Source of the DNA: Comamonadaceae bacterium
GTDB taxonomy: Bacteria > Pseudomonadota > Gammaproteobacteria > Burkholderiales > Burkholderiaceae_C
NCBI GenBank assembly: GCA_023259355.1
Contig: JAHFQI010000012.1
Coordinates: 1-38,909, forward strand
Direction: 5' to 3'
DNA length: 38,909 nt
Positions within the stretch are counted from its first letter, which is position 1; the number at the start of each line of letters is the position of its first letter. Below the pieces are notes generated by a model. It did no database searches and was not told where the DNA came from. It worked only from the letters and a program-made list of their open reading frames with translations. Below, one piece after another: positions 5,252 to 31,285 of the stretch. The translations under genes and the position numbers were made by a program.

Positions 5252-5833
5252 TCAGGCGAAATTGGCTTCGGCGAAGCTCCAGTTCGCCAGTTTGTCGAGG
5301 AAGGTTTCGACAAACTTCTGGCGCAGGTTGCGGTAGTCAATGTAGTAGGCGTGCTCCCACACATCCACCGTCAGCACAGCCTTGTCGGCGGTGGTCAGCG
5401 GGGTGCCCGCCGCACCCATGTTGACGATGTCCACCGAACCGTCGGCCTTTTTCACCAGCCAGGTCCAGCCGGAGCCAAAGTTGCCCACAGCCGACTTCAC
5501 GAAGGCTTCGCGGAAGGCCGCATAGCTGCCCCATTTGGCATTGATGGCCGCAGCCAGCGCACCGGAAGGCTCGCCGCCGCCATTGGGCTTCATGCAGTTC
5601 CAGAAGAACGTGTGGTTCCAGATCTGGGCCGAGTTGTTGTAGATGCCGCCGCTGGACGTCTTGACGATCTCTTCCAGCGTCTTGGTTTCGAATTCCGTGC
5701 CCTTTTGCAGGTTGTTCAGGTTCACCACGTAGGCGTTGTGATGCTTGCCATGGTGGTACTCCAGCGTCTCCTTGGAGTAGTGCGGCGCAAGGGCGTCGAT
5801 CGCGTAAGGCAGGGCGGGCAAGGTGTGTTCCAT
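5252..5833 (-). CDS. sodB: Fe superoxide dismutase
   Basis: MEHTLPALPYAIDALAPHYSKETLEYHHGKHHNAYV... and DVWEHAYYIDYRN. Confidence 0.96.
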   Translation of the reverse strand: MEHTLPALPYAIDALAPHYSKETLEYHHGKHHNAYVVNLNNLQKGTEFETKTLEEIVKTSSGGIYNNSAQIWNHTFFWNCMKPNGGGEPSGALAAAINAKWGSYAAFREAFVKSAVGNFGSGWTWLVKKADGSVDIVNMGAAGTPLTTADKAVLTVDVWEHAYYIDYRNLRQKFVETFLDKLANWSFAEANFA

Positions 5834-5895
5834 GGATTCCTCGTGAGTTGGGGTTGTGATGAAGAAGATATTGCCAGGGGGCTGATTGTAGGAAC

Positions 5896-7236
5896 TTAAA
5901 GCAGGCGCCGCTGGGTCACGGTCAGATCAACCGTGCCGTCGGCAAGGGTGGCCTGAACGGCCTGTCCGGGGTGGGTCCCCTGCGCGCTGGTGATGGCGTG
6001 GCCGGCCTCGTCGGTCAGCCAGGCATAGCCGCGCCGCAACACCCCATGGGGGTCCACGGCATTCAGGCGCAATCCAATGCGCGCCATCCGGTCCTGCTCA
6101 AGCCGCAGTCGCCGCTCCACCTTCAGGGGAAAATCAGCCGACTGCCTTTGCCAATCGCCCGTCAGCCGCGCCATCCTCGCCAGCACGCCATAACGCAGGC
6201 GCTGGGCATGGCGCGCCAGTTGCAGTTGCTGGCGGGTCACCAGCGACGAGGGCCGGCCCAGCCGGGATGCGGCGATATCAAGCCGCTGGCTCTGCGTGTC
6301 AAGCACGCGCTGGACGGCGTCGCCCATCCGGCTGCCGATCAGACTCAGGGCGCCCAGCCACACGTCGCGTGGCTCGGCCACCAGTTCGGCCGCCGCCGTG
6401 GGTGTCGGCGCCCGCAAGTCGGCGACGAAGTCGGCCATCGTGAAATCGGTCTCGTGTCCCACGCCGCAAACCACCGGCACCGGGCTCTGCGCCAGCGTGC
6501 GGGCGAGCTGCTCGTCGTTGAAAGCCCACAAATCCTCCATGGAACCGCCGCCGCGCACCAGCAGGATCACGTCCACACAAGACATGCCTCCGACGGCTGG
6601 CGCCGGCTGTTCCGGCTTTTCCGCCGGTTCGGCCGGGGCAAGACGGTAGAGAGAGGCCAGCGCCCGGACCAGTTCCCCCGGAGCCCCGGCGCCCTGCACT
6701 GCGGCCGGCGAAACCACCACCGGGATGTGCGGCACGCGCCGCTGCAGCGCGGTGACCACATCATGCAGCGCCGCCGCACCCAGCGATGTCACGACCCCGA
6801 TGGCACGTGGCATGGGTGGCAGAGGCCGCTTGCGGGCGGCATCGAACAGGCCCTCGGCTTCCAGTTTAGCCTTCAGGCGCAAAAACTGTTCAAACATCGC
6901 GCCCTGCCCGGCGCGTTGCAGGCTTTCCACGATGAGCTGCAGGTCCCCGCGGGCCTCATACACCCCGAGGCGCCCCCGCAATTCGACCAGCTCGCCATCG
7001 CGCGGAACAAAGTCCAGCAGACTGGCGGCCCGGCGGAACATGGCGCAGCGAATCTGGCCGGTTTCGTCCTTGATCGAAAAGTAACAATGCCCGCTGGACG
7101 CGCGCGAGAAGCCCGAAACCTCGCCGCGGACCGCGACGGGATTGAACCGGGCCTCCAGCGCATCAGCAACGGCGCGGCACAGCGCGCCAACTTGCCAGAT
7201 TCGCGGCGCCAATGCTGGATTTTCAGGGCTGGACAT
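5896..7236 (-). CDS. xseA: Exodeoxyribonuclease VII large subunit
   Basis: OB-fold N-terminus (VRGEVSGFSRASSGHCYFSIKDETGQIRCAMFR) and VVCGVGHETDFTMADFVADLRAPTPTAAAELV. Confidence 0.95.
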   Translation of the reverse strand: MSSPENPALAPRIWQVGALCRAVADALEARFNPVAVRGEVSGFSRASSGHCYFSIKDETGQIRCAMFRRAASLLDFVPRDGELVELRGRLGVYEARGDLQLIVESLQRAGQGAMFEQFLRLKAKLEAEGLFDAARKRPLPPMPRAIGVVTSLGAAALHDVVTALQRRVPHIPVVVSPAAVQGAGAPGELVRALASLYRLAPAEPAEKPEQPAPAVGGMSCVDVILLVRGGGSMEDLWAFNDEQLARTLAQSPVPVVCGVGHETDFTMADFVADLRAPTPTAAAELVAEPRDVWLGALSLIGSRMGDAVQRVLDTQSQRLDIAASRLGRPSSLVTRQQLQLARHAQRLRYGVLARMARLTGDWQRQSADFPLKVERRLRLEQDRMARIGLRLNAVDPHGVLRRGYAWLTDEAGHAITSAQGTHPGQAVQATLADGTVDLTVTQRRLL

Positions 7237-7574
7237 CAGTACCCATGCGCTTCATGGGGCAATTTGCCTGGCACAGTACTCCACAGACAGGCCCGGATAC
7301 CTGCCTGAGCCCGGCGCATCGCGAAAATGCCGATCCGGCGTTGCAAGTTGTTGATTTTCATGAGTTTTTTTCTGCTCAATTTGTGACCAATTTGTCACAA
7401 AGCCCATTCCGCGCGGTCTGGCGCCCCATCCAGCACCAGTTCTTCACAAAGTTATCCACAGATTTTGTGGGTCTGTGTGATCCGGAAGACGCCGCCGACA
7501 ATGCGCCTCCGGGACTTGGCGCTGGGCCATAATCCCGGCATCTGGCAAACGCCCCAATCCCCCGGAGAGACCTC

Positions 7575-8213
7575 TTGCTTTCGATCATACAAGCTGCAGG
7601 CTGGCCCATCTGGCCTCTCGTCGCCTGCTCCATTCTGGCGCTGGCTCTCATCATCGAACGGTTCGTGAACCTCAAAACCGACCGCATTGCGCCGGCCAAG
7701 CTGCTGGACGAAGCCCTGACGGTGTCACGCACCAGCGTGCCTTCCGGCGACGTGGTCAGCCAGCTGGAGCAGAACTCGGCGCTTGGCGAAGTGCTGGCCA
7801 GCGGGTTCCGCGCGCTCAATGCCAATCCGCGTTGCACCGAGGCCGACCTGCGCGCCAGCATGGAGGGGTCGGGCCGCATTGTGGCTCACCGGCTGGAGCG
7901 CTATCTGACGGCGCTGGCCACCATCGCCTCCGCAGCCCCGCTGCTGGGGCTGCTTGGTACGGTGATCGGGATGATCGAGATTTTTGGCTCGCAGGCGCCC
8001 ACGGGCGGCGCGACCATGGGTGGCGCCAACCCGGTGCAGCTCGCGCACGGCATTTCCGTGGCGCTGTACAACACGGCCTTCGGCCTGATCGTCGCCATTC
8101 CCTCGTTGATTTTCTGGCGCTATTTCCGCGCCCGGGTCGATGGCTACCTGCTGACCATGGAGCTGGCCTCGGAGCGGTTTGTCCGGCATCTGGACACGTT
8201 GCGCAGCAAGTAG
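7575..8213 (+). CDS. exbB: MotA/TolQ/ExbB proton channel family protein
   Basis: TTG start after a GGAGAGA RBS; IASAAPLLGLLGTVIGMIEIF and three TM segments; followed by exbD. Confidence 0.9.
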   Translation: MLSIIQAAGWPIWPLVACSILALALIIERFVNLKTDRIAPAKLLDEALTVSRTSVPSGDVVSQLEQNSALGEVLASGFRALNANPRCTEADLRASMEGSGRIVAHRLERYLTALATIASAAPLLGLLGTVIGMIEIFGSQAPTGGATMGGANPVQLAHGISVALYNTAFGLIVAIPSLIFWRYFRARVDGYLLTMELASERFVRHLDTLRSK

Positions 8214-8220
8214 GCCGCCC

Positions 8221-8649
8221 ATGAATTTCCGACCAAGGCCCAAGGATGAGCCGGAGATCAACCTGATCCCTTTCATCGACGTGCTGCTGGTGGTGCTCAT
8301 TTTCCTGATGCTCACCACGACGTACAGCAAGTTCACCGAAATGCAGTTGCAGTTGCCGGTGGCCGATGCACAGGCGCAGCGCGACTACCCGAAAGAGGTG
8401 ATCGTGGCCGTCAGCAGCGACGGACGCTACATGGTCAACAAGATGCCGGTGGATGGCCGCAGCGTGGACGTGGTGGCCGCTGCACTGGTGGAGGCCGCGA
8501 AGGCCGGCAAGGACAGTGTGATCATCATCAGTGCCGATGCGAGCACCTCGCACCAGAGCGTCATCACCGTGATGGAGGCAGCCCGACGCTCCGGCCTCAC
8601 GCAAATCACCTTTGCCACGCAGTCGACGGCCCAGGCCGGCGGCAAATAA
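8221..8649 (+). CDS. exbD: Biopolymer transport protein ExbD/TolR family
   Basis: MNFRPRPKDEPEINLIPFIDVLLVVLIFLMLTTTY. Confidence 0.92.
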   Translation: MNFRPRPKDEPEINLIPFIDVLLVVLIFLMLTTTYSKFTEMQLQLPVADAQAQRDYPKEVIVAVSSDGRYMVNKMPVDGRSVDVVAAALVEAAKAGKDSVIIISADASTSHQSVITVMEAARRSGLTQITFATQSTAQAGGK

Positions 8650-8673
8650 CCCCTGGGCGCCCCTCCCATTTCC

Positions 8674-9708
8674 ATGCCCGAAGCCAGCCCGCCCTCGCTG
8701 CGGCAGCGTCTGCAGCAGGCGTGGCTGCGGCGCGGCGTCACAGCCTGGCTGTTGTGGCCGCTCTCACTGCTCATGCGCGGGATCGTGGCGGTGCGACGCG
8801 CGTGTTACCGAGCAGGCTTGTTACGCTCCGACCATCCCGGTGTGCCGGTGATCGTGGTCGGCAATGTGGTCGCGGGTGGTGCCGGCAAAACCCCCACGGT
8901 GATCGCCGTGGTGCAGCACCTGCAGGCGCGGGGCCTGCATCCGGGCGTGATTTCCCGGGGTTACGGACGCGTCGGCCCGGCGTGCGCCGAGGTGGCACCC
9001 GACAGTCCGGCCAAGGCGGTGGGTGACGAGCCTCTGCTCATGCGCCGCGCCACCGGCGCCCCGGTGTTCGTGGCAGCTCGCCGGATAGATGCGGCGCGGG
9101 CATTGCGTACACGGCACCCCCGGACCGACGTGATCGTTTGCGATGACGGGCTCCAGCACCTCGCCTTGCGACGCGATATCGAGATCTGCGTGTTTGACGA
9201 ACGTGGCACCGGCAATGGTTTTCTCCTGCCCGCCGGGCCGTTGCGCGAACCGTGGCCAAGGCAGGTCGATCTCGTCCTGAATACGTCAGGAGCGGGCGGC
9301 GTGTCACCGTCCACGGCCGGGTTCACCGCCCCCAGGGCGCTGGCCGACCACGCCGTCCGTGCAGACGGCAGCCGGATCCCGCTGGAGAAATTGCGCGGCG
9401 GCACCTTGCGTGCCTTGGCCGGTATTGCCCGTCCCCAGGCATTTTTCGACATGCTGAAAGCCCGCGGATTGTCTCTGACGACCACCGAATTCCTGCCGGA
9501 TCACTACGATTTCAGCGACTGGAGACGCCCGGCAGATGACCCCAGCGAGCTGGTCTGCACCGAAAAAGACGCGCTCAAGCTCTGGACAACCCATCCCGAT
9601 GCCTGGGCCGTCCCGCTGGTGCTCACCCCCGAGCCCGGCTTCTTCAGTGCGCTCGATCAGCGGCTTGACGCAAAGCTATCATCACCCAATGGACACCAAA
9701 CTTCTTGA
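8674..9708 (+). CDS. lpxK: Tetraacyldisaccharide 4'-kinase
   Basis: [27 protein letters not shown]...GVISRGYG...[20 protein letters not shown]. Confidence 0.95.
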
Positions 9709-21718: not shown

Positions 21719-21795
21719 CTGCCCGTAGCTCAACTGGATAGAGCAACGGCCTTCTAAGCCGTAGGTCGGGGGTTCGAGTCCCTCCGGGCAGGCCA
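21719..21795 (+). tRNA. tRNA-Arg (anticodon TCT); its 3' part is attL of the integrative element
   Basis: CTGCCCG/CGGGCAG acceptor stem, CGGCCTTCTAAGCCG anticodon arm, GGGGGTTCGAGTCCCTC T arm, GCCA end. Confidence 0.95.
21751..21795 (+). repeat. attL: direct repeat in the tRNA-Arg 3' end
   Basis: CTTCTAAGCCGTAGGTCGGGGGTTCGAGTCCCTCCGGGCAGGCCA. Confidence 0.9.
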
Positions 21796-21842
21796 GTAAA
21801 CACTAGGTTTCATGCTACAAATTAAGTAGCAAACCCCATCCA

Positions 21843-21862
21843 GGGTAACGCCGGGGTAACAA
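21843..21862 (+). repeat. Paired GGGTAAC sites (candidate integrase arm-type site, attL side)
   Basis: GGGTAACGCCGGGGTAACAA; 19/20 identical to 31094-31113. Confidence 0.6.
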
Positions 21863-21914
21863 ATCCAGTGACCCGGCTCTTGTGATGCTTTTTCGCGACG
21901 CGGGCAGACTTCCC

Positions 21915-21940
21915 ATCGACAAAGTAGACAGTCTCGACGG
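21915..21940 (+). repeat. GACAA/G 9-bp iteron-like cluster near attL
   Basis: ATCGACAAAGTAGACAGTCTCGACGG; the first 17 bp match the reverse complement of 25440-25456. Confidence 0.55.
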
Positions 21941-22468
21941 ACTCAACCCCAAAGCAGAAAGCCGGCCAACGTCCCCGCTTGCCGGCTCCTGTGCCTATCG
22001 TGCGCCCTTGCACCAATCCCACCCTTCACCCGTTGACTGAATATGGTGCAAGCACCGCGCCACAGACTGTCACGGGCTTTCTGGCCGCCCCCGCTGACCG
22101 GGCGGGCGGGGCCTGGTGGGGCCGGTCGTAGCCTTTCGGCCTTAACCGGTATACCAGCAGGACGGCACGTCATGTGAACGTTCCGGTGCCGGGCCCCTGC
22201 CTTGGGTGCGATGCAGGCGCACTGGCTGGTGGGAGCGGTTCGTGCGGCGCCATGTTCGGCCTTGCGTGATGTGTGTGGGGGTGTTGCCTTCGCATTCCAG
22301 CGATAGGCGCGCACCTGTCGAGACTTCCCGGAGAGGAGTCGCCCCCTTCGTGCGCTTGCGCGGGATTCAGTCGAATCATGCGCGGGGTGTCGCTCATGGG
22401 GCGGCGCTGCAAACGCCAGGGGTTGGCGGGCTATGAGCAACCCCTCGCCCGCCGTCCAGATTGCGAAT

Positions 22469-24364
22469 TTACGCGCCAGGGTTCTTGTACAGACCACGGT
22501 AATCGATCACACCGGCCGCGAAATCCAAGCGGACTTTGTAGCTGATGGCATCGCGCTCGAATTCGGTGTTTTCCTCCAGGTATGGGCGGGGTTCGCCGGC
22601 CAGATAGGCGCGCAGGATGCCCTCGATTTGGCTCGGAGACGCAGACAGATACCACGCCGTAACGCTGTGGGCGTCCAAACGCGGATCGGCAACCAGCGTC
22701 AGGCCTCGGATAAATTCCGCATTGGGTGTTGCATTGTTGCGGGACGGGTCCACAAGACTGGACAAAATTTGCTCCGCGCTGGTTTCCAGTGCAGCCGGCA
22801 CGATCAGGAACTTGGGTTGCGGATCGACGTAACCCAGTCCTGCCAGGCCCTTCTGCTGACGCATAGCAGACCGGGCCGTGCCCAGACTGGCGATGCTCAA
22901 GGCTGCGGCGGCGCCCAGGTTGCCGTGATCGGTGCTGAACAGCGCGAAGCCGTCGCCCAAGGTGGGGTTGCCGTTCAGAACTCCGTAGACCTTGTCGGCC
23001 TCCAGGCGGCGCGCTGCAACGCCGAAAGCTTTTGGCATGATCGTGAACGCGCTCAGGTCGTCATTCACCAACGCCTGCCGACTGATTTGCAGGATCCTGC
23101 CGTATGCGGCAATCTGGAACGCTGCGGCGCCGTCGGACATTTGGCCGTGCTTGTATTCGGCCAGCTCGGGAATTTCCAGCAGACCGGGCGCTTCGCTCAA
23201 ATTCACCAGCGTCTGTTGCTTGAAGTCAGCAACGTCGCGTTCTGCCGTCCACAGGGTGTGACCATTGGGTGCTGATTCGTAGCCCAACGCCATTGCTTTT
23301 CCAGCAGTGTTGGCCAACAGCGCAGGAAAGTCGGACGTACTCAACGCGGCACTGATGACCGAGCCCGGATTCATATCGCGGGTTGCTTTGCCCGTCATCG
23401 AGAGGATGGCCTCAGCCATGCCGACGATGCCCAGGCGTTGCAGGTCGCGGGCGCCAGGGTGCGGCTCGGAAACACTCACGCCGGCACGGCGCAACAGCAC
23501 ATCCTGCGCTGCAGCCTTGAAATCACTCAGGCGATTGTCGCCGCCGAAGCTGGGGATGTAGTGCGCGCCGATAGGGCTGCATTGCGAGCCAATGTGCGCA
23601 AGCAGGCGATCAGCCGCGGCTTGCGCGCCGATGCTGGGATCGGCCTCGCAGCGGGCCTGCAGCTCAGCAACTCCTTCGCGTTGAACAAAGTGACTGAATT
23701 TGGCGCGGATGTCGTTACGGCGCTGGCTTTCGGCCTGCACAGCGGCGGCGCGAATGGCTTCGGGATTGGTGGCTTGGGTGGTGGCGGTCATGTTGATCCT
23801 TTGAGCAAAAACGGGGGGAAGGGGGTGTCGTGCTGCCACGGCGTTGGCTGGCGCAGCGGGTATGGCGGCAATGTCGCTGATGACTTCATCGATCAGGCCA
23901 AGCGCTTGGGCCTCGGCTGCGGTGAACCAGTGGTCGGTGCCATCGAGCCAAGTACGGATGACGGCATCGGGTTGCCCGGTGCGCCGGTAGGCAATCAGCA
24001 TCGACTCCCGGACCTGGTCAAGCAGATCAGCGCTGCCGCGAAGTGAGTCGGCATTGCCCGTCGTGCTGGTCCATGGCGCATGAACCATAAGTAACGCGGA
24101 TTCGTGCGCGCGGCGGATGGTGCCCGACTGCAGGATCACACTGGCGATGGACAGCGCCCAGCCGACAACTTCAACGGTGATGCCGCCTGGCCAGCTGCGC
24201 AGCATGTTGAAACAGGCGATGCCGTCAGCAACATTTCCGCCATCGGAATTGATTTCGACCTGCAGCGGCACGGCGCGGTCGAAGCCGTCAAGCTGGAATC
24301 TCAGCGACTCCGTGGTCGCCTCGGTGACGGAACCGGTGATGCTGATTTTTTGGGGTAGTTGCAT
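22469..24364 (-). CDS. Prohead protease (ClpP-like)/major capsid protein fusion
   Basis: Start at MQLPQKISITGSVTEATTESLRFQL; ClpP-like core LQVEINSDGGNVADGIACFNML...GWALSIASVILQSG...ALLMVHAPW; C-terminal region resembles Mu gpT-type/fusion MCPs (FPALLANTAGKAMALGYESAPNGHTLWTAERDVADFKQQTLVNLSEAPGL...RQALVNDDLSAF...VLNGNPTLGDGFALFSTDHGNL). Confidence 0.88.
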   Translation of the reverse strand: MQLPQKISITGSVTEATTESLRFQLDGFDRAVPLQVEINSDGGNVADGIACFNMLRSWPGGITVEVVGWALSIASVILQSGTIRRAHESALLMVHAPWTSTTGNADSLRGSADLLDQVRESMLIAYRRTGQPDAVIRTWLDGTDHWFTAAEAQALGLIDEVISDIAAIPAAPANAVAARHPLPPVFAQRINMTATTQATNPEAIRAAAVQAESQRRNDIRAKFSHFVQREGVAELQARCEADPSIGAQAAADRLLAHIGSQCSPIGAHYIPSFGGDNRLSDFKAAAQDVLLRRAGVSVSEPHPGARDLQRLGIVGMAEAILSMTGKATRDMNPGSVISAALSTSDFPALLANTAGKAMALGYESAPNGHTLWTAERDVADFKQQTLVNLSEAPGLLEIPELAEYKHGQMSDGAAAFQIAAYGRILQISRQALVNDDLSAFTIMPKAFGVAARRLEADKVYGVLNGNPTLGDGFALFSTDHGNLGAAAALSIASLGTARSAMRQQKGLAGLGYVDPQPKFLIVPAALETSAEQILSSLVDPSRNNATPNAEFIRGLTLVADPRLDAHSVTAWYLSASPSQIEGILRAYLAGEPRPYLEENTEFERDAISYKVRLDFAAGVIDYRGLYKNPGA

Positions 24365-24381
24365 GGCGGGCTGGGGTGGCG

Positions 24382-24915
24382 TTAGAGAAACTGTGAAAGC
24401 AGTTTCCCCCCCGTTGTCTTTTGCGAAAACCCCTTGTTTCGCGAAAGAGTCGCGTACAAACCGCTGGCGGTCGTCGGCAACTTGACGTCGGTGCGCGCTG
24501 CTTGCCAAATGTGTCGGGTGTATTCCGGCCAGTGGGCTGGCGGCGCGGACAGTCGCTTGGTCTTGGGCCAGGTGCTTCGCATGAAGCGGTCCACCTCGAT
24601 TGCCAGACGTTGGCATCGATGCCAGGTGCTGACGCCATCGTCAAGGGCAACGGACTGCAGGGCTGCGTGCAGGTGCTGATCGCGCTGAATCATCAGCAAT
24701 TGCTCCTGCAGTCGGGTCTTGCCAGCGCCCGCCAAGCCCAACGCCAGGTCGAGCGATTCATCGCGCCGGATTGCTCGCAGAATGCCGCGCACGGCCCACT
24801 CTCGGGTAGAGGCGTCCACGGGACGGCCATCGATCAGCGAGCCCAGCAAATCGCCCAGCATGTCGGCGGGACTGGTGGGGCTTTGCACTCTGTAGTGGGG
24901 GTGTCCGTTTTCCAT
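24382..24915 (-). CDS. Hypothetical protein, mobile-element type
   Basis: MENGHPHYRVQSPTSPADMLGDLLGSLIDGRPVDASTREWAVRGILRAIRRDESLDLALGLAGAGKTRLQ...; tightly packed between two minus-strand ORFs. Confidence 0.7.
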   Translation of the reverse strand: MENGHPHYRVQSPTSPADMLGDLLGSLIDGRPVDASTREWAVRGILRAIRRDESLDLALGLAGAGKTRLQEQLLMIQRDQHLHAALQSVALDDGVSTWHRCQRLAIEVDRFMRSTWPKTKRLSAPPAHWPEYTRHIWQAARTDVKLPTTASGLYATLSRNKGFSQKTTGGKLLSQFL

Positions 24916-24925
24916 ACGGCCGCCA

Positions 24926-25216
24926 TCAGTGGCCGGAATTGCGCGCTTCCACGGCGTTGACCGTGAACAGGTGTGCTTTGCCGCCGTGGCTGCAGTAATG
25001 GCCCTCTGCCGATACACCGCGTTTCGTAAACATCACCGTTGTCTCAATGAATGCGTCGCCGTCCGCGATGGAGTCCAGATTCGCCAGGGCCGCTGCCTTG
25101 CCTTCTTTCATCAAGGCCTTCATCGCCAGGCCCATCAGGCCCGCCCCGGCAGCGTCAATCAAGGTTTGAATCCCGTCGTCATCCCCATCATTCTGGTTTG
25201 TGATTTCGTTGCTCAT
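24926..25216 (-). CDS. Hypothetical protein
   Basis: MSNEITNQNDGDDDGIQTLIDAAGAGLMGLAMKALMKEGKAAALANLDSIADGDAFIETTVMFTKRGVSAEGHYCSHGGKAHLFTVNAVEARNSGH; 10 bp upstream of the next ORF. Confidence 0.7.
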   Translation of the reverse strand: MSNEITNQNDGDDDGIQTLIDAAGAGLMGLAMKALMKEGKAAALANLDSIADGDAFIETTVMFTKRGVSAEGHYCSHGGKAHLFTVNAVEARNSGH

Positions 25217-25380
25217 GTCGTTCTTTCGTTGGTTGGTAGTGGTGGGGGACATCACCCCCCAAGAGGTAGCCGCAAACTAGATGGGCCACGCCGCCGAATT
25301 CGCCCGCGAGGGTCACCCCCCCGGGAGTACCTTTCTTCAGGCACGCGACATCCCCGACCAGCGCGGCCCCGTCCACCCCC

Positions 25381-25459
25381 CCTATCGACAATCTCGACAA
25401 TCTCGACAGACGCCCCGCAGTCACTCGGGTTTGTCTACTCTGTCTACTTTGTCGATAGG
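25381..25459. repeat. Two opposed arrays of three 9-bp GACA(A/G) iterons, bounded by an 11-bp inverted repeat; candidate replication origin or operator
   Basis: CCTATCGACAATCTCGACAATCTCGACAG ... TTTGTCTACTCTGTCTACTTTGTCGATAGG; CCTATCGACAA/TTGTCGATAGG are perfect inverted repeats. Confidence 0.65.
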
Positions 25460-25534
25460 TGCAGGGGTTGAGGCTCATAATTGATTGATACAGAAAGAAA
25501 AAGGGTTAAAAAATGCTTATGGCGACAGACTCGG

Positions 25535-27085
25535 TTATGTCGACAGCACCTTGGGATTGACTCGGTAGGCCGTGGTCGGTGGTGCGCCCTTGTTGTGGCG
25601 CTTGAACCCGCGCAGTACGTCCTGGTTCTCCAGTCGCTCCAGCGCCTTCTGAAGCCGGTCCACGCTTCGAAATCGCCCTTCCTGCGCCTTCTGCGCCTCG
25701 CGCCTGGTGAACTCGGCCAAATCACCCGCCCGGACCCACTTCACGATGGCCCCGGCGTCCGCGTCCGCCGCATCCGTGCCCAGCAGCCCGAAGGCCGCCT
25801 GCGCATGGGGGATCAGCAGCCGCGCCAGCCGCACGGCCCGGTCCATGGCAGCCCAGCTCACCTCGGGCGCCTGCAGCCCCATCTCGGCCAACTCCAACAG
25901 CGCCGCCACCCGCGCCACCGCGCCGGGCAGCTTGCTGGTCCAGTCGCTGATGGACTCATACCGGCCACCGTCGCCCTGCTCGCGCTCGATGGCTTCGGCC
26001 ATGTCAAGCCAGATCTCCCGCGCCGCTTCAGACAAGGGCAGCGTCTTGGGTGCCTGTGCGGGACCGGGCACGCCCTCCAGCAGCGCGAACAGCCGCCGCT
26101 GGTACTCATCCTTCACCGCATGGGGGATCGGCGTATGTCGGCGCACGTCGCGGGTGCCCACGTTGCTGGCCGGCATGGCGTACAGGAACCGCGCCAGCAG
26201 GCCGGAATCCCTGAACCGGCGCGAGCTGGCCACCTCGGACAGCACACCCGGCTGCAGCAGCAAGCCGAATGACAGCGCGGGTTGGTCAACGTGGGCAGAT
26301 CGGCCGGCCCGGTCCACCCGCATGGCGCTGCCCGCGTGCCCCTGCAGGAAGACGTCCAGGTTGGCCGCGCCCCCGTTGTAGATGCCGGCCATGATGAGGA
26401 AGATTCCCGCCTCGTCCTAGTGCACCGCCATGCGCTCGCCGTGTTCCACCAGCATGGCCTGCAGCCGCTCGGCTGTGGTGTCTCCGCTGAACAGTCGCGG
26501 CGCCCGGATTTCATCGGGCATGTCGGTTTCCTCACGCTCGATCTCCGCCGTGATCGCCGCGCGTTCGCTGGCGTCCTTGGCTTTGGCGCCGTCCTGCTGC
26601 AGGCGTTCAATCCGCTTTTTTGCAACGGCGCGTTGGGCGTTGACCTTGGCAATCTCGCCGCGCATGCGGTCGCGCAACAGCTTTTCCCAATAGACCAGCG
26701 GCCCCAGCATGGCGCCCAGGACGGCGCTCTTGCGTGTGCCGCTGGGTGACGCGCTCAGGGTCCACAGCGCCAGCGGCTCGGTGTATCCGTCGCCATAGGG
26801 CGCCACCTCAAACCGGCGCTGCAGCACAGTCGCCAGCACGGCCAGGCCGGACATAACCGCCAGGGCTGGCGGCGTCTGTGTGGCCTCGGCCAGGGCGTGC
26901 GCCATGTCACCCAGCCAGGTGGGCAGCAAGTCCGGCGGTATGGACGGGGTTCGCAGCATGCCGGGCAAGATCGGGTCCGGCCACTCAGGCGGCGCGACCG
27001 TGGGCGCGGCCTGGTCAACCTGTCGGCGCACCTCTTCCAGGCCGGCCATGTCCGCCAGGTCGTTAAAGTCCGTCGCAATGCTCAT
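25535..27085 (-). pseudogene. DUF3987-type replication protein/ATPase interrupted by an in-frame TAG at 26419-26417
   Basis: N-part ...LWTLSASPSGTRKSAVLGAMLGPL...ERLQAMLVEHGERMAVH*; C-part continues in the same frame DEAGIFLIMAGIYNGGAANLDVFLQGHAGSAMRVDRAGR... to NPKVLST. Could instead be readthrough, reinitiation or a sequence error. Confidence 0.8.
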
Positions 27086-27894
27086 GGGCGGACCTCCGGG
27101 AACCGTGGCACCGCCACTGAGCCGCCAATGGCCCGCGCCGCCGCCGTGGCGTGCGTCACGCCGGGGTTGTTAGAAGTGGCCGCATCGTCGTCAGCACAGA
27201 TGACCATGGTCAAGCGCGGGAACTTCGCCCGCAGCGCCCGAGCCACGGGTTCCAGATTGCCGCAGTTGAAGCACACAGCCACCGCCGCGCCGGTCGCCTG
27301 GTGCAAGGTGCAGCCGGTGGCCAACCCTTCGGCCAATAGCAGCAAGCCAGCGGGCCGGCCGATGGCGAAGTAACAGCCCCTGATGCGCCCGCCCGTCAGG
27401 AATCGCTTGGATCCGTCCGGGCTGATGAACTGCAGCGTGTGCAGCGTGCCGGTAACGTCACGAGCCGGGATCACCAGCATGTCGCGCAACTGGCGAACAC
27501 CGATGGCCGGAACGCGCTTGCGCTGCAGGTAGGGGTGCGCGTTGGTGGCCGGGTGTGCCCACGCCCACAGCTTCGCGGCTCGCTCGGATGCGGACGCATG
27601 CACGGCCGCCTGCTCCGCGGCGCGGGCCTGCTGCATGGCTTTCATCTGGCGTTGCAGCTCGGCGCGCTGGGCTGGCGTCGGTGGTGTGGTGGTGGCTTCG
27701 CGCCAGGTGTGCGACTCGCCGGTCTTCCAGCTCCCGAACGCGCCGGCCATGACCGGGTGGCTGTAGAGCACGGCCCAGCCGTTGCGGCTGCCGGACTTGT
27801 CGCCCTCGACGCGGTAGCGGGTCAGCTTGCCGTCTTCGCGCAGCTCCAACGCCTTGGCCGGACCCAAGCCGGCGCCGCGCATGGCGTCCAACAT
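27082..27894 (-). CDS. Toprim-domain/primase-like protein
   Basis: MLDAMRGAGLGPAKALELREDGKLTRYRVEGDKSGSRNGWAVLY...LLLLAEGLATGCTLHQATGAAVAVCFNCGNLEPVARALRAKFPRLTMVICADDDAAT; ATGA overlap with the downstream DUF3987 gene. Confidence 0.88.
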   Translation of the reverse strand: MLDAMRGAGLGPAKALELREDGKLTRYRVEGDKSGSRNGWAVLYSHPVMAGAFGSWKTGESHTWREATTTPPTPAQRAELQRQMKAMQQARAAEQAAVHASASERAAKLWAWAHPATNAHPYLQRKRVPAIGVRQLRDMLVIPARDVTGTLHTLQFISPDGSKRFLTGGRIRGCYFAIGRPAGLLLLAEGLATGCTLHQATGAAVAVCFNCGNLEPVARALRAKFPRLTMVICADDDAATSNNPGVTHATAAARAIGGSVAVPRFPEVRP

Positions 27895-27902
27895 GCAGGC
27901 CG

Positions 27903-28196
27903 TCAAAATGGCACCCCCGTGACTTGGTTCAGGAAGGCTTGAACGTCGTGCAGGTGGCTGAAATTCCGGGACTGATTCCAGCGCGTGACGATGTACGTGA
28001 TGCGGCCATCGGGCACACGGCGGGAGCGGGTCAGGACGCGCCCACGCAAGGCGAACTGCGCCCGCATGGTGGCGTAATCCTTGGGTTCCTCGTTGCTTAT
28101 TTCTTCGGCCGTGAATACACTGGTGGGGCAAACTTCAATTGAATCCGCTTCGGGTGTGTCCAGCACCCGGGCGGATTTTTCTTTGGGGCATCGCAT
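27903..28196 (-). CDS. Small hypothetical protein
   Basis: 97 aa, start codon directly abuts the alpA-like stop; ...VLTRSRRVPDGRITYIVTRWNQSRNFSHLHDVQAFLNQVTGVPF. Confidence 0.7.
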   Translation of the reverse strand: MRCPKEKSARVLDTPEADSIEVCPTSVFTAEEISNEEPKDYATMRAQFALRGRVLTRSRRVPDGRITYIVTRWNQSRNFSHLHDVQAFLNQVTGVPF

Positions 28197-28406
28197 TTAT
28201 GCCCCTCGTGTGCGCTGGGCCAGGAATGCGTCCAGGTCAGACAGGCGATAGCGCACCAGCCGGCCGACCTTGATGTAAGCCAAGGGGTAGCGTTTGGTGC
28301 TGCGCCAGATTTGCAGGGTGGTCGGCTTGACCCCAAGGTAGGCGGCCGCCTCGTTTTCGGCAAGTCTCGCGTCTGGCGCGGATTGGGGGGATTGGGTGGA
28401 ATTCAT
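28197..28406 (-). CDS. AlpA-like/excisionase-family HTH protein
   Basis: MNSTQSPQSAPDARLAENEAAAYLGVKPTTLQIWRSTKRYPLAYIKVGRLVRYRLSDLDAFLAQRTRGA; classic HTH_17 pattern. Confidence 0.9.
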   Translation of the reverse strand: MNSTQSPQSAPDARLAENEAAAYLGVKPTTLQIWRSTKRYPLAYIKVGRLVRYRLSDLDAFLAQRTRGA

Positions 28407-28568
28407 CGAACCTCCGGTGGGTTACGAATCGCACAGCGCGTTTCGTGTGGGTTCGATCCTCCCCAAAAGTCACGTTCGGTAAAACTTGGTATGCCGGCAC
28501 ACCACCAACAATATCGGCCCAACTTCATGGTTGAGCGTGCCGCTTTCAACCCACCTCATGCTGAGCAA

Positions 28569-29024
28569 TTACCGCTGATTCATATGGGCAATAGCTTCAC
28601 CATCCCCCCCGGGCCCCCGCATCGCCGGTGCAATACAACCACGCAACCAGTCTCTGGCAATGGTTGTGGGCTTCACTTTGACGCCAAACTTATTCAAAAC
28701 TACTGATGACATCCGCTCGGAAAACTCCTTCTTGGCGCCATTTCGGGGAGCTTGGTCAGGCCACAGATCACGCACATGTTGCATTGCATTTTTTCGCTCC
28801 CGATGCCTCTTTTCTGCCAGCTCACGTTGCCGACTGGATGCGTCCGCAATTCGAAGTGCAGTGACCAGTTCCACGAGGTCGCAAGCATTGATCGGTTGTT
28901 GATCCAACAAGCCCTGAAGAGCGGGGATGTCAACGTCATCAGACTTGACCAAAGTCAACAAGGAAGCGACCCGGGCGACATCGCAGCCCAAGTGAATATC
29001 TTTAAGTTTCACGGACTTCGCCAC
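28569..29024 (-). CDS. Hypothetical cargo protein 2
   Basis: 151 aa, starts 3 bp after the upstream ORF stop; no family recognised. Confidence 0.65.
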   Translation of the reverse strand: MAKSVKLKDIHLGCDVARVASLLTLVKSDDVDIPALQGLLDQQPINACDLVELVTALRIADASSRQRELAEKRHRERKNAMQHVRDLWPDQAPRNGAKKEFSERMSSVVLNKFGVKVKPTTIARDWLRGCIAPAMRGPGGDGEAIAHMNQR

Positions 29025-29027
29025 CGC

Positions 29028-29744
29028 TCACCCCTTGCAGTTTGCGATCCCGACAGATGGCACCAGACGCAGCACAGGCCGAACAGGATTAGCCTGCTCA
29101 ACCCAGGCATTGATAGCCTCGATCCTCGCGTTGCGCCGGCTTTCGTCAAAGCGCGTCTTGCCGGTCAAGAGCAATGTATGCAGCCTCGCAGAGACAAGGC
29201 GGAATTCACGTATGGCGTCAGCGTCATAGCTGTAACCGCTGAACTCGTTAACACACATGCCAGAGGCAACCGTCTCGATGAGGGCAGAAAAGCAGCGCGC
29301 CTCCCTCTCCCGATAAATCTGGGGCGTTCGCGGCATCGACGCCAACTCGCGTTCCGCGCGCTCTCTAGCTTCACGATAAGCCCCCTCCTTTTCGCGCCGC
29401 ACCCGATCGCGGTCAATGGCCGCCCAATACGCCCCCATTTCCTCTTCCGAGTGGCCAACAAGCGCTTCAAAAATCTGACTGCTCCGGCGCCGGATAGATA
29501 GATATTTTTCGTCTCTGGGACGGGCGCTGCCTTTTCTCACCGGCTCTCCGTCGTAGTAAGTCGCCTGGACCTTCCCCCTACCTGGTTCACCTGGCATTTG
29601 ATCGTGCCGCACCAATCCAGTAGCCACAATTTGCGCCGCAGAGCCGATAAAGGTCCGGCCCCAACCGCTGACTTCAACTTTAAGTTCATGATCGTTGGAT
29701 ACAGCCACCAATCGAGAAGAGGATGTAGAGTTCACATCAGCCAT
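29028..29744 (-). CDS. Hypothetical cargo protein 1
   Basis: MADVNSTSSSRLVAVSNDHELKVEVSGWGRTFIGSAAQIVATGLVRH...; no family recognised. ORF track extends to 29765. Confidence 0.65.
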   Translation of the reverse strand: MADVNSTSSSRLVAVSNDHELKVEVSGWGRTFIGSAAQIVATGLVRHDQMPGEPGRGKVQATYYDGEPVRKGSARPRDEKYLSIRRRSSQIFEALVGHSEEEMGAYWAAIDRDRVRREKEGAYREARERAERELASMPRTPQIYREREARCFSALIETVASGMCVNEFSGYSYDADAIREFRLVSARLHTLLLTGKTRFDESRRNARIEAINAWVEQANPVRPVLRLVPSVGIANCKG

Positions 29745-29820
29745 GATTGCACCTCCAATGTGCATTGTGGTCAGGCGGAGTTGGTGGTCTCAACACCAGC
29801 CCCGCCGCCTTTTACCCGGC

Positions 29821-31062
29821 TCAATCCGCCGCCGGGCTTGGCGGTTTCTCTGTCTGTGCGGCTTGCCGGCCGCCGCTCACCAGTGCATTGGTGGCTCGCT
29901 CCATGGCCTCGCGCACCGGGTCGGTATCGGCAATCCGCTGGTACACGGCCGCCGCTTGCAGGCTCTTGTGCCCCAAGGCTTTGGCATTGATGGCGGTACT
30001 GGCGCCAGTGCGCACCAGCCAGGACCCCATGGTGCGGCGCAGGTCGTGAATTCTCAAATCATCCAGGCCGGCGCGGCGCTGCAGCGTAGCCCAGGCGCGT
30101 TTTGGCTCCTGGTAGTGCCCGGTCTTGCTGTCTGCCGGGAACACCCACGGCGATGACTTCGCATGCTCTTTGTGCCGGGGCTTCAACACGGCCACGGCCT
30201 CGGGGGTCAAGGGGATCAGCATTTCCTCGCCGGCCTTGGCATCCACGGCCCGAATGCGCCAGGTCGCCGCGCCCATGTCCACATCGGCCCAGCGCATGGC
30301 CAGCACGTTGGAGCGCCGCGCGCCGGTCAGCAGCGCCAGGGTGAAAAAGCTCTTGGCCGGCTCGGCCGTCTCTCCCAGCGCCTCGAAGAACCGCGCCAGC
30401 TCGGCCGGTTGAAGGTAGCGGGTGCGCGAGGCCTCGGTGTTCTTCCTGACGGCTTCGGCCGGGTTGTCGCCGCTCCACAACCGGGCATCCTTGGCCCAAT
30501 TGAAAACCGCCTTGACCAGCGTGATGCACCGGTTTGCACTTACAGGCGCCCCGGTCTTCTTGCCTTCCTCTTTCGGTTGACCCTTGGTCACAGCACCGTG
30601 CAGCGCCCGCACCTTGTCGTGCGTGATGGCAGACAGGCGGCTTTTCCCGATGGCCGGATCGATGTACACCTTATTCAGACGTTCGAACTCGGCGCGGCTG
30701 CTCGCGCGCAGCCCGGGGTGCGCTTCCAGGTACTGGGTGAACAGTTCGCCGTAGGTCATCTCGCCACGGCGGGCGCGGCCGGCGGCCGCGTAGCTTTGCC
30801 CCATGGCAAGCTGGGCCACGATCTGTTTGGCGCTGGTGCGAGCGTTTTCCGGCGTCAGCTTGTCCGCCGTGCCGATGGTGACGCGCTCAAGCGCCCCACC
30901 CTTGGCACGCGCCAGGACGCAATAGGTCTTCACGCCGGCCGCACTGACGCGCAGGCGCAGGCCGGGTTGTTCCGTGTCTTGGTACTCGGCCCGCTTGCCA
31001 GGATCGGCTGGCGGCAATGCCAACACGCTGGTCTTCGTGAACCTGAATTTGGTCTCGCTCAT
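29821..31062 (-). CDS. int: Tyrosine-type site-specific integrase (P4-like)
   Basis: MSETKFRFTKTSVLALPPADPGKRAEYQDTEQPGLRLRVSAAGVKTYCVLARAKG...LTGARRSNVLAMRW...LRIHDLRRTMGSWLVRTGASTAINAKALGHKSLQAAAVYQR: R...HxxR...H/Y catalytic residues present. Confidence 0.95.
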   Translation of the reverse strand: MSETKFRFTKTSVLALPPADPGKRAEYQDTEQPGLRLRVSAAGVKTYCVLARAKGGALERVTIGTADKLTPENARTSAKQIVAQLAMGQSYAAAGRARRGEMTYGELFTQYLEAHPGLRASSRAEFERLNKVYIDPAIGKSRLSAITHDKVRALHGAVTKGQPKEEGKKTGAPVSANRCITLVKAVFNWAKDARLWSGDNPAEAVRKNTEASRTRYLQPAELARFFEALGETAEPAKSFFTLALLTGARRSNVLAMRWADVDMGAATWRIRAVDAKAGEEMLIPLTPEAVAVLKPRHKEHAKSSPWVFPADSKTGHYQEPKRAWATLQRRAGLDDLRIHDLRRTMGSWLVRTGASTAINAKALGHKSLQAAAVYQRIADTDPVREAMERATNALVSGGRQAAQTEKPPSPAAD

Positions 31063-31093
31063 GTGCCCTTTTCCCGTAGCCGTGGGTCGTTTG

Positions 31094-31113
31094 GGGTAAC
31101 ACCGGGGTAACAA
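31094..31113 (+). repeat. Paired GGGTAAC sites (candidate integrase arm-type site, attR side)
   Basis: GGGTAACACCGGGGTAACAA, 19/20 identical to 21843-21862; an inverted third copy GTTACCC lies at 31142-31148. Confidence 0.6.
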
Positions 31114-31242
31114 GACCTAGTAAATTTCGTAAAACTTGGTCGTTACCCGTTAAGCGAGACTCTATCGTAACTATTTGATTTGTCTAGATTAATAAAGATT
31201 TGTCTAGCCGTGGTTCGGCGTGGAAAACAGGCTAAAAACAAT

Positions 31243-31285
31243 CTTCTAAGCCGTAGGTCGGGGGTTCGAGTCCCTCCGGGGGCCA
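31243..31285 (+). repeat. attR: duplicated tRNA-Arg 3' end with a 2-bp deletion
   Basis: CTTCTAAGCCGTAGGTCGGGGGTTCGAGTCCCTCCGGG--GGCCA compared with attL. Confidence 0.9.

Follow-up and report, generated by a model that had tools for sequence, protein, structure and literature searches.

An integrative element of satellite type that encodes a protease-capsid fusion but no portal, terminase or tail protein in a Comamonadaceae bacterium

Results

Gene content and limits of the element

The window analyzed here, a stretch of 38,909 nucleotides from a Comamonadaceae bacterium (contig JAHFQI010000012.1), contains an integrative element of ~9.5 kb, spanning positions 21751-31280 and flanked by an exact direct repeat of 38 bp whose sequence corresponds to the 3' half of a tRNA-Arg(tct) gene (Table 1). 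An exact pair of 38-mers within 10 kb is far beyond chance. The ORFs were identified by HMM searches with Pfam, NCBIfam and PHROGs, and all the convincing genes lie on the minus strand, being an integrase, two hypothetical proteins, an AlpA-like HTH protein, a 97-aa protein, a Toprim primase, a DUF3987 protein, a small protein, orf177 and a protease/capsid fusion. A previous reading of the DNA letters (hereafter, the sequence-only reading) had placed an element with att repeats at both ends at 21751-31285 and had named the integrase, AlpA, toprim, DUF3987 and protease-MCP fusion genes, all on the minus strand. The HMM searches confirm these genes and the repeats are indeed present, although the element ends at 31280 and the conserved orf177, located between DUF3987 and the capsid gene (24382-24915), was missing from that list. 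Also, the integrase, replication module and regulator show the conserved order and the one-way transcription by which PICIs are recognized (PMC6092414), and the same gene order is found in the relatives L039-L041, L047 and L227 described below.

Table 1. Features of the element and of its integration site, in window positions
Feature	Position	Strand	Basis
Integration target tRNA-Arg(tct), complete	21719..21795	+	ARAGORN
att repeat copy 1, 38 bp, inside tRNA-Arg	21751..21788		exact repeat
680 bp beyond the capsid gene, no family-level ORF; candidate packaging-site region	21789..22468		no PHROG match of its ORFs; no phage-record match
Fusion of a ClpP-like prohead protease with an HK97-type major capsid protein, 631 aa	22469..24364	-	Pfam/NCBIfam/PHROG; start by homology (conserved ATG)
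orf177, all-helical small protein, directly upstream of the capsid gene	24382..24915	-	conserved in 7 elements; class-wide matches
Small hypothetical protein, 96 aa from likely ATG	24926..25216	-	ORF list; no PHROG match
DUF3987 helicase-like protein, two ORFs owing to one in-frame TAG	25535..27085	-	PF13148 2e-34 and 4e-56 on the two ORFs
Toprim primase-like protein	27082..28131	-	phrog_2249 4e-67; PF13362 just below cutoff; 70% identity in L039
Hypothetical protein, 97 aa	27903..28196	-	no family match (Pfam/NCBIfam/PHROG)
AlpA-like HTH regulator/excisionase	28197..28406	-	HTH_17 (3e-10), phrog_66
Hypothetical protein, 151 aa	28569..29024	-	no family match (Pfam/NCBIfam/PHROG)
Hypothetical protein, 245 aa, largest coding-strand ORF without assignment	29028..29765	-	no significant family match (Pfam/NCBIfam/PHROG)
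Tyrosine integrase	29821..31113	-	PF00589 3e-25, phrog_1 8e-59
att repeat copy 2, 38 bp	31243..31280		exact repeat

The DUF3987 gene is split by the TAG at positions 26417-26419, where the closest homologue has a Ser. When the gene is read through this codon, the identity to L039 is 78% before the stop and 81% after it, which suggests that the stop is either recent or a base error of the assembly. Then, the window copy may be impaired by this stop, or may simply carry an error of the MAG. The dN/dS of DUF3987 was excluded because the stop produced an alignment artefact.

Absence of portal, terminase and tail genes

None of the ORFs of the element matches portal, TerL, connector or tail families in Pfam, NCBIfam or PHROGs, and no Sid/Psu-type capsid-size gene is found among their matches to the same databases. 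The only match to a "terminase small subunit" (phrog_57, 1e-3) corresponds to the generic HTH of AlpA and was discarded. Portal and TerL proteins are normally larger than 245 aa, and no minus-strand ORF without assignment in the element exceeds this length. The negative HMM scans, together with the size of this largest leftover coding-strand ORF, exclude a hidden portal or TerL. As the sequence-only reading had proposed, the integrative element is of satellite type and has a capsid gene but no portal, terminase or tail gene; the profile check for portal, TerL and TerS that it suggested reveals neither a portal nor a terminase among the small ORFs.

The protease-capsid fusion

The capsid protein combines a ClpP protease domain (2e-24) and a Phage_capsid_4 domain (8e-52), and the fusion as a whole passes the threshold that NCBIfam sets for NF045540, "ClpP-like prohead protease/major capsid protein fusion". 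The open frame reaches position 24616, and the gene probably starts at 24364, judging from the ATG conserved among homologues. All of the compared MCP-fusion satellites retain Ser and His at their positions in the protease, and so do the phage homologues; the acidic third residue could be assigned in neither group. The dN/dS values of the capsid gene are 0.07, 0.15 and 0.26 for three pairs, those at larger distances being rough because dS is near saturation; the pattern is that of a maintained gene under purifying selection.

In the phages that carry the same type of fusion (mEp213 and Solano), the gene order is TerS-TerL-gpW-portal-fusion-gpD, and their fusions are about 33% identical to that of the window. 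The satellite fusion has its origin in the heads of siphoviruses whose terminase and portal are of the lambda type, and has since followed a separate, satellite-only lineage. A second MCP match in the MAG of the window (contig C35 of G000) resembles host ClpP rather than a phage gene.

Recurrence of the element in other genomes

Of the 401 genomes of the family that were searched, two contain close relatives of the capsid gene, three in total, with 52-54% identity. In L039, the identity to the window is 70% for toprim, 78-81% for DUF3987, 40% for orf177 and 52% for the capsid. The other two, L040 and L041, are copies in one genome located at different tRNA-Ser genes, and both have a fused primase/DUF927-like protein instead. 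All three present the order int - primase/helicase - orf177 - MCP, without portal or TerL. Repeats of 127-128 nt after the MCP of L040 and L041 flank single Ns and were rejected as scaffold-gap artefacts, the far ends of both copies being uncertain.

Further members (L046, L047, L048 and L128) come from metagenomic contigs. Moreover, three contigs are circular, L047 with 9.90 kb, L048 with 10.49 kb and L050 with 10.35 kb (terminal overlaps of 99, 127 and 141 bp, respectively), and most bounded members fall in a narrow size range of 9.5-10.5 kb. Hence the layout of ~10 kb, whose recurrence without portal or terminase had been proposed as a check, is found again both in L039-L041 and in metagenomic contigs, and the element belongs to a real, maintained and recurrent satellite family.

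In the roughly 190 labelled loci, most of the other capsid relatives, including the best-scoring ones, adjoin TerL, portal or the decoration gene gpD. Those without such neighbors are short contigs, distant matches and remnants, apart from L094, L203 and L050, which are separate cases of satellites. For example, L094 (4457-11857) combines int and AlpA with a RepA helicase and a protease-capsid fusion, and lacks orf177, portal and TerL. Another contig, L183 (3355-13708), has two different protease-capsid fusions with an integrase gene between them, and possibly represents a satellite inserted into a prophage head module. Also, a capsid-gene remnant stands alone in the chromosome of G283 (L042, 9868-10152); it is 59% identical to the window protein over the C-terminal part, and is probably a relic of the satellite lineage of the window element.

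Capsid phylogeny

In a tree of 130 capsid proteins, seven satellite MCPs (those of the window, L039, L040, L041, L046, L047 and L128) form an exclusive clade with an SH-aLRT support of 100, all the sampled phage MCPs being outside of it, and L048 branches next to this clade (support 83). The satellite label requires 3 changes on the tree versus 10.7 in shuffles. The head/tail module missing from the window element is absent as well from the members of the satellite clade that were checked. The capsid of L094 nests in the phage part of the tree, next to mEp213 and Solano, and on this placement constitutes a second, independent capsid capture. The positions of L050 and L203 are unsure.

orf177 and a wider group of satellites

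The protein encoded by orf177 has no match in Pfam, PHROG or PDB, nor by fold; its AF2 model, built from 5 sequences, has a mean pLDDT of 75, and the best Foldseek matches are not significant. Also, no match to the window orf177 was found among 50,697 phage records. In the members of the capsid clade, the gene immediately precedes that of the capsid. When profiles were searched across the class, orf177 appeared in further genomes, several of the copies being inside att-bounded elements oriented like the window element, with int at one end and a virion gene adjoining the intact target. In L227 (tRNA-Leu, 58-bp att, 9.7 kb), orf177 is followed by a capsid fusion and a neck/tail-completion protein, and in L231 (25-bp att, 9.5 kb) by a capsid domain without protease and a tape measure. 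In L228 (tRNA-Met, 48-bp att, 13.1 kb), it is accompanied by a lambda-type capsid E, an S49 protease, a decoration protein D and a tape measure, and in L229 (tRNA-Leu, 58-bp att, 10.3 kb) by a small terminase and a J-like tail-tip protein.

The genes of L228 for capsid E, S49 protease and decoration D occupy positions 6092-8820, with no portal or TerL found; going by its gene content, this is an independent capsid type on the same orf177-satellite plan. In L229, the small terminase and the lambda J-like tail-tip protein (5302-7824) are the sole recognizable virion genes. A tape measure gene also follows the capsid gene in L046 and L047. Considering the four elements with such a gene (L046, L047, L231 and L228), it lies downstream of the orf177-capsid pair in three, and the PHROG/Pfam matches are strong for L046, L047 and L228 and weaker for L231. 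The tape measure genes are at L046:4746-7361, L047:8266-9995 plus 1-241, L231:12126-14555 and L228:2816-5311. Small terminase (TerS) genes are present in L128, L048 and L229, and a capsid domain without protease in the related satellites L203, L231 and L233. The exceptions are L232 and L230, which have a TerL-like gene near orf177.

These comparisons mark orf177 as the signature of a wider satellite group with differing partial virion kits: capsid alone; capsid and tape measure; TerS and tail tip; and lambda-type capsid, protease and decoration with a tape measure. The gene thus provides a sequence handle for finding such elements. When divergent orf177 copies served as single-protein queries against viral contigs, the only addition was L236, whose orf177-capsid-tail-completion cassette is 97% identical to that of L227 over 3.5 kb, whereas the rest of the contig hardly aligns. 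This suggests that the cassette moves as a unit.

Discussion

Comparison with known satellites

A lone capsid-protein gene in a satellite is already known from SaPIbov5, PmCI172 and EcCICFT073, so the division of labor that the sequence-only reading called unusual was overstated (PMC8569155, PMC5052747, PMC6092414). The cos SaPIs of the SaPIbov5 type resemble the window element in size, in their int, regulator and primase genes, and in having an HK97-fold capsid homologue, Ccm, in the absence of portal and terminase genes; SaPIbov5 borrows the portal, the motor and the tail (PMC8569155, PMC5052747). However, Ccm of this Staphylococcus element has no protease, is confined to pentamers and makes no capsid by itself (PMC8569155), whereas the window element has an intact protease-capsid fusion from a different (ClpP-fusion) capsid lineage with orf177 adjoining. 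Among Gram-negative bacteria, the PICIs PmCI172 and EcCICFT073, whose reported hosts are Enterobacteriaceae and Pasteurellaceae, share the one-directional order int - AlpA - replication - late genes and a capsid gene without a head module; no protease fusion is described for these capsid genes (PMC6092414). Capsid homologues thus occur in accepted PICIs such as SaPIbov5 and PmCI172 as well, the one in the window element being a complete protease-capsid fusion. At 9.5 kb, with its att in a tRNA-Arg gene, the window element is smaller than a typical PICI of about 12-15 kb, and PICIs use att sites never used by prophages (PMC6092414).

The cf-PICIs, as described in papers that cite the original work, resemble the window element in encoding both a major capsid protein and a protease for head maturation, and use a helper tail, but they also encode a portal, head-tail connectors and both terminase subunits, TerS and TerL, none of which is present in the window element (PMC10690885). 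MulchRoom and MiniFlayer are also satellites with their own capsid gene; nevertheless, their genes include TerS, TerL, portal, scaffold and adaptor but none for replication, the window element being the reverse on both counts (PMC10690885). With P4-like satellites, the window element shares the integrase, AlpA, primase/helicase, a size of ~10 kb and the tRNA site, but it has its own capsid gene and no Sid/Psu-type genes in the family scans. Compared with the full TerS-TerL-gpW-portal-fusion-gpD head modules of the siphoviruses mEp213 and Solano, it keeps only the fusion. Finally, the Pseudomonas satellite AH14b has a tail-assembly gene and no capsid gene (PMC4936722).

What is new here is an intact protease fusion without any packaging gene, a deep satellite-only capsid lineage, and an orf177 group with partial virion kits that include tail genes. 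No description of these features was found in the open-licence literature, which for cf-PICIs is represented by citing papers, nor was any found there of tail parts owned by capsid-carrying satellites. A satellite can, in this light, keep a complete protease-capsid fusion over long evolutionary times without a matching portal or motor.

A proposed mechanism and its alternatives

The element is an integrative phage satellite, and we consider it probable that it makes its own small shell, which is finished by the portal, terminase and tail of a helper. A self-built shell is favored because the protease-scaffold-capsid fusion is intact and most bounded members have a uniform size of 9.5-10.5 kb. 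According to this mechanism, infection by a helper or its induction would lead AlpA to activate the element, which would excise and replicate as a circle of ~9.5 kb or as a concatemer. The fusion protein would build a small shell, matured by the fused protease; this shell would nucleate on the helper portal and be filled by the helper terminase, with the element DNA being recognized through a packaging site of its own, or through the satellite TerS in the members that have one. The helper connectors and tail would then complete an infectious particle too small for the helper genome. As a guess, orf177 might act as an adaptor or regulator of a late packaging or assembly step. If the mechanism is true, the compatibility between capsid and portal from different genomes would be directly testable in a 10 kb system.

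Nonetheless, a self-sufficient shell should not be assumed, because Ccm, the satellite capsid protein studied in most detail, does not assemble into capsids by itself (PMC8569155). The main rival is a Ccm-like redirection of size, in which the satellite MCP co-assembles with the helper MCP (e.g., as pentamers) and forces small capsids, most of the head being given by the helper. SaPIbov5 is a direct precedent for this, its Ccm being homologous to capsid proteins while the element has neither a portal nor a terminase gene (PMC8569155, PMC5052747), and PmCI172 encodes an MCP homologue and makes small capsids (PMC6092414); the capsid domains without protease of L203, L231 and L233 point in the same direction. 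However, the window and its clade keep the protease, with its Ser and His conserved, and the complete scaffold/capsid fusion, whereas Ccm has no protease. Moreover, the MCP clade has diverged from all the sampled phage MCPs, so that a close co-assembly with a single MCP of a helper is less readily expected, and we judge this explanation unlikely for the window element. Less likely still, and by a clear step, is that the capsid gene serves mainly as a weapon, its product poisoning the assembly of the helper head and protecting the host while the element travels as concatemers in helper capsids. It is true that Ccm strongly blocks its helper (PMC5052747), that the capsid-protein gene of EcCICFT073 is dispensable for transfer (PMC6092414), and that the lone tail genes of other orf177 satellites (J-like in L229, tape measure in L228 and L231) could also interfere. 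Yet a dominant-negative product needs no conserved protease, and the uniform size found for most of the bounded members points to a limit on volume.

The sequence-only reading had taken a decayed prophage, which lost its portal, terminase and tail genes, as the main alternative. The stop codon in DUF3987 and the phage origin of the capsid fusion would fit such a scenario, but the same layout occurs at independent integration sites and genomes, in multiple att-bounded members and in complete circular relatives; the capsids form an exclusive satellite clade and are under purifying selection, and orf177 is missing from the phage records searched. On this evidence, a decayed prophage is extremely improbable.

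Returning to the satellite with a self-built shell, the wider orf177 group allows a broader proposal, which we hold tentatively and with slightly more doubt than belief: each satellite would own a few chosen virion parts and the helper would give the rest, resulting in virions made from two genomes, with the window element as the capsid-only form whose shell would self-assemble around a foreign portal. Judging from the elements that carry a tape-measure or tail-tip gene, satellites may select the virion parts that they encode themselves, those of the tail included.

Candidate helpers and packaging sites

No helper phage was identified in G000, G120 and G262, the genomes examined for a lambda-type portal or a GpA-type TerL. 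G262, a complete genome with a member of the family, has neither of them, which indicates that the helper there is not a resident phage of lambda type. A comparison of the element with the TerL contig of the same MAG, in search of a shared packaging site, gave only short GC-rich matches, and the non-coding end of the element has no match in phage records. In G000, only a TerL fragment is found. The 5.9 kb contig L210 (G000:C104) of this MAG carries a lambda-type TerL and a Toprim primase, and is possibly a fragment of a helper prophage. Three lambda-type portals (L211, L212 and L213) are found in G120, with no GpA TerL in the genome. Two of them are followed by a small holin-like ORF, and the gene order is unusual.
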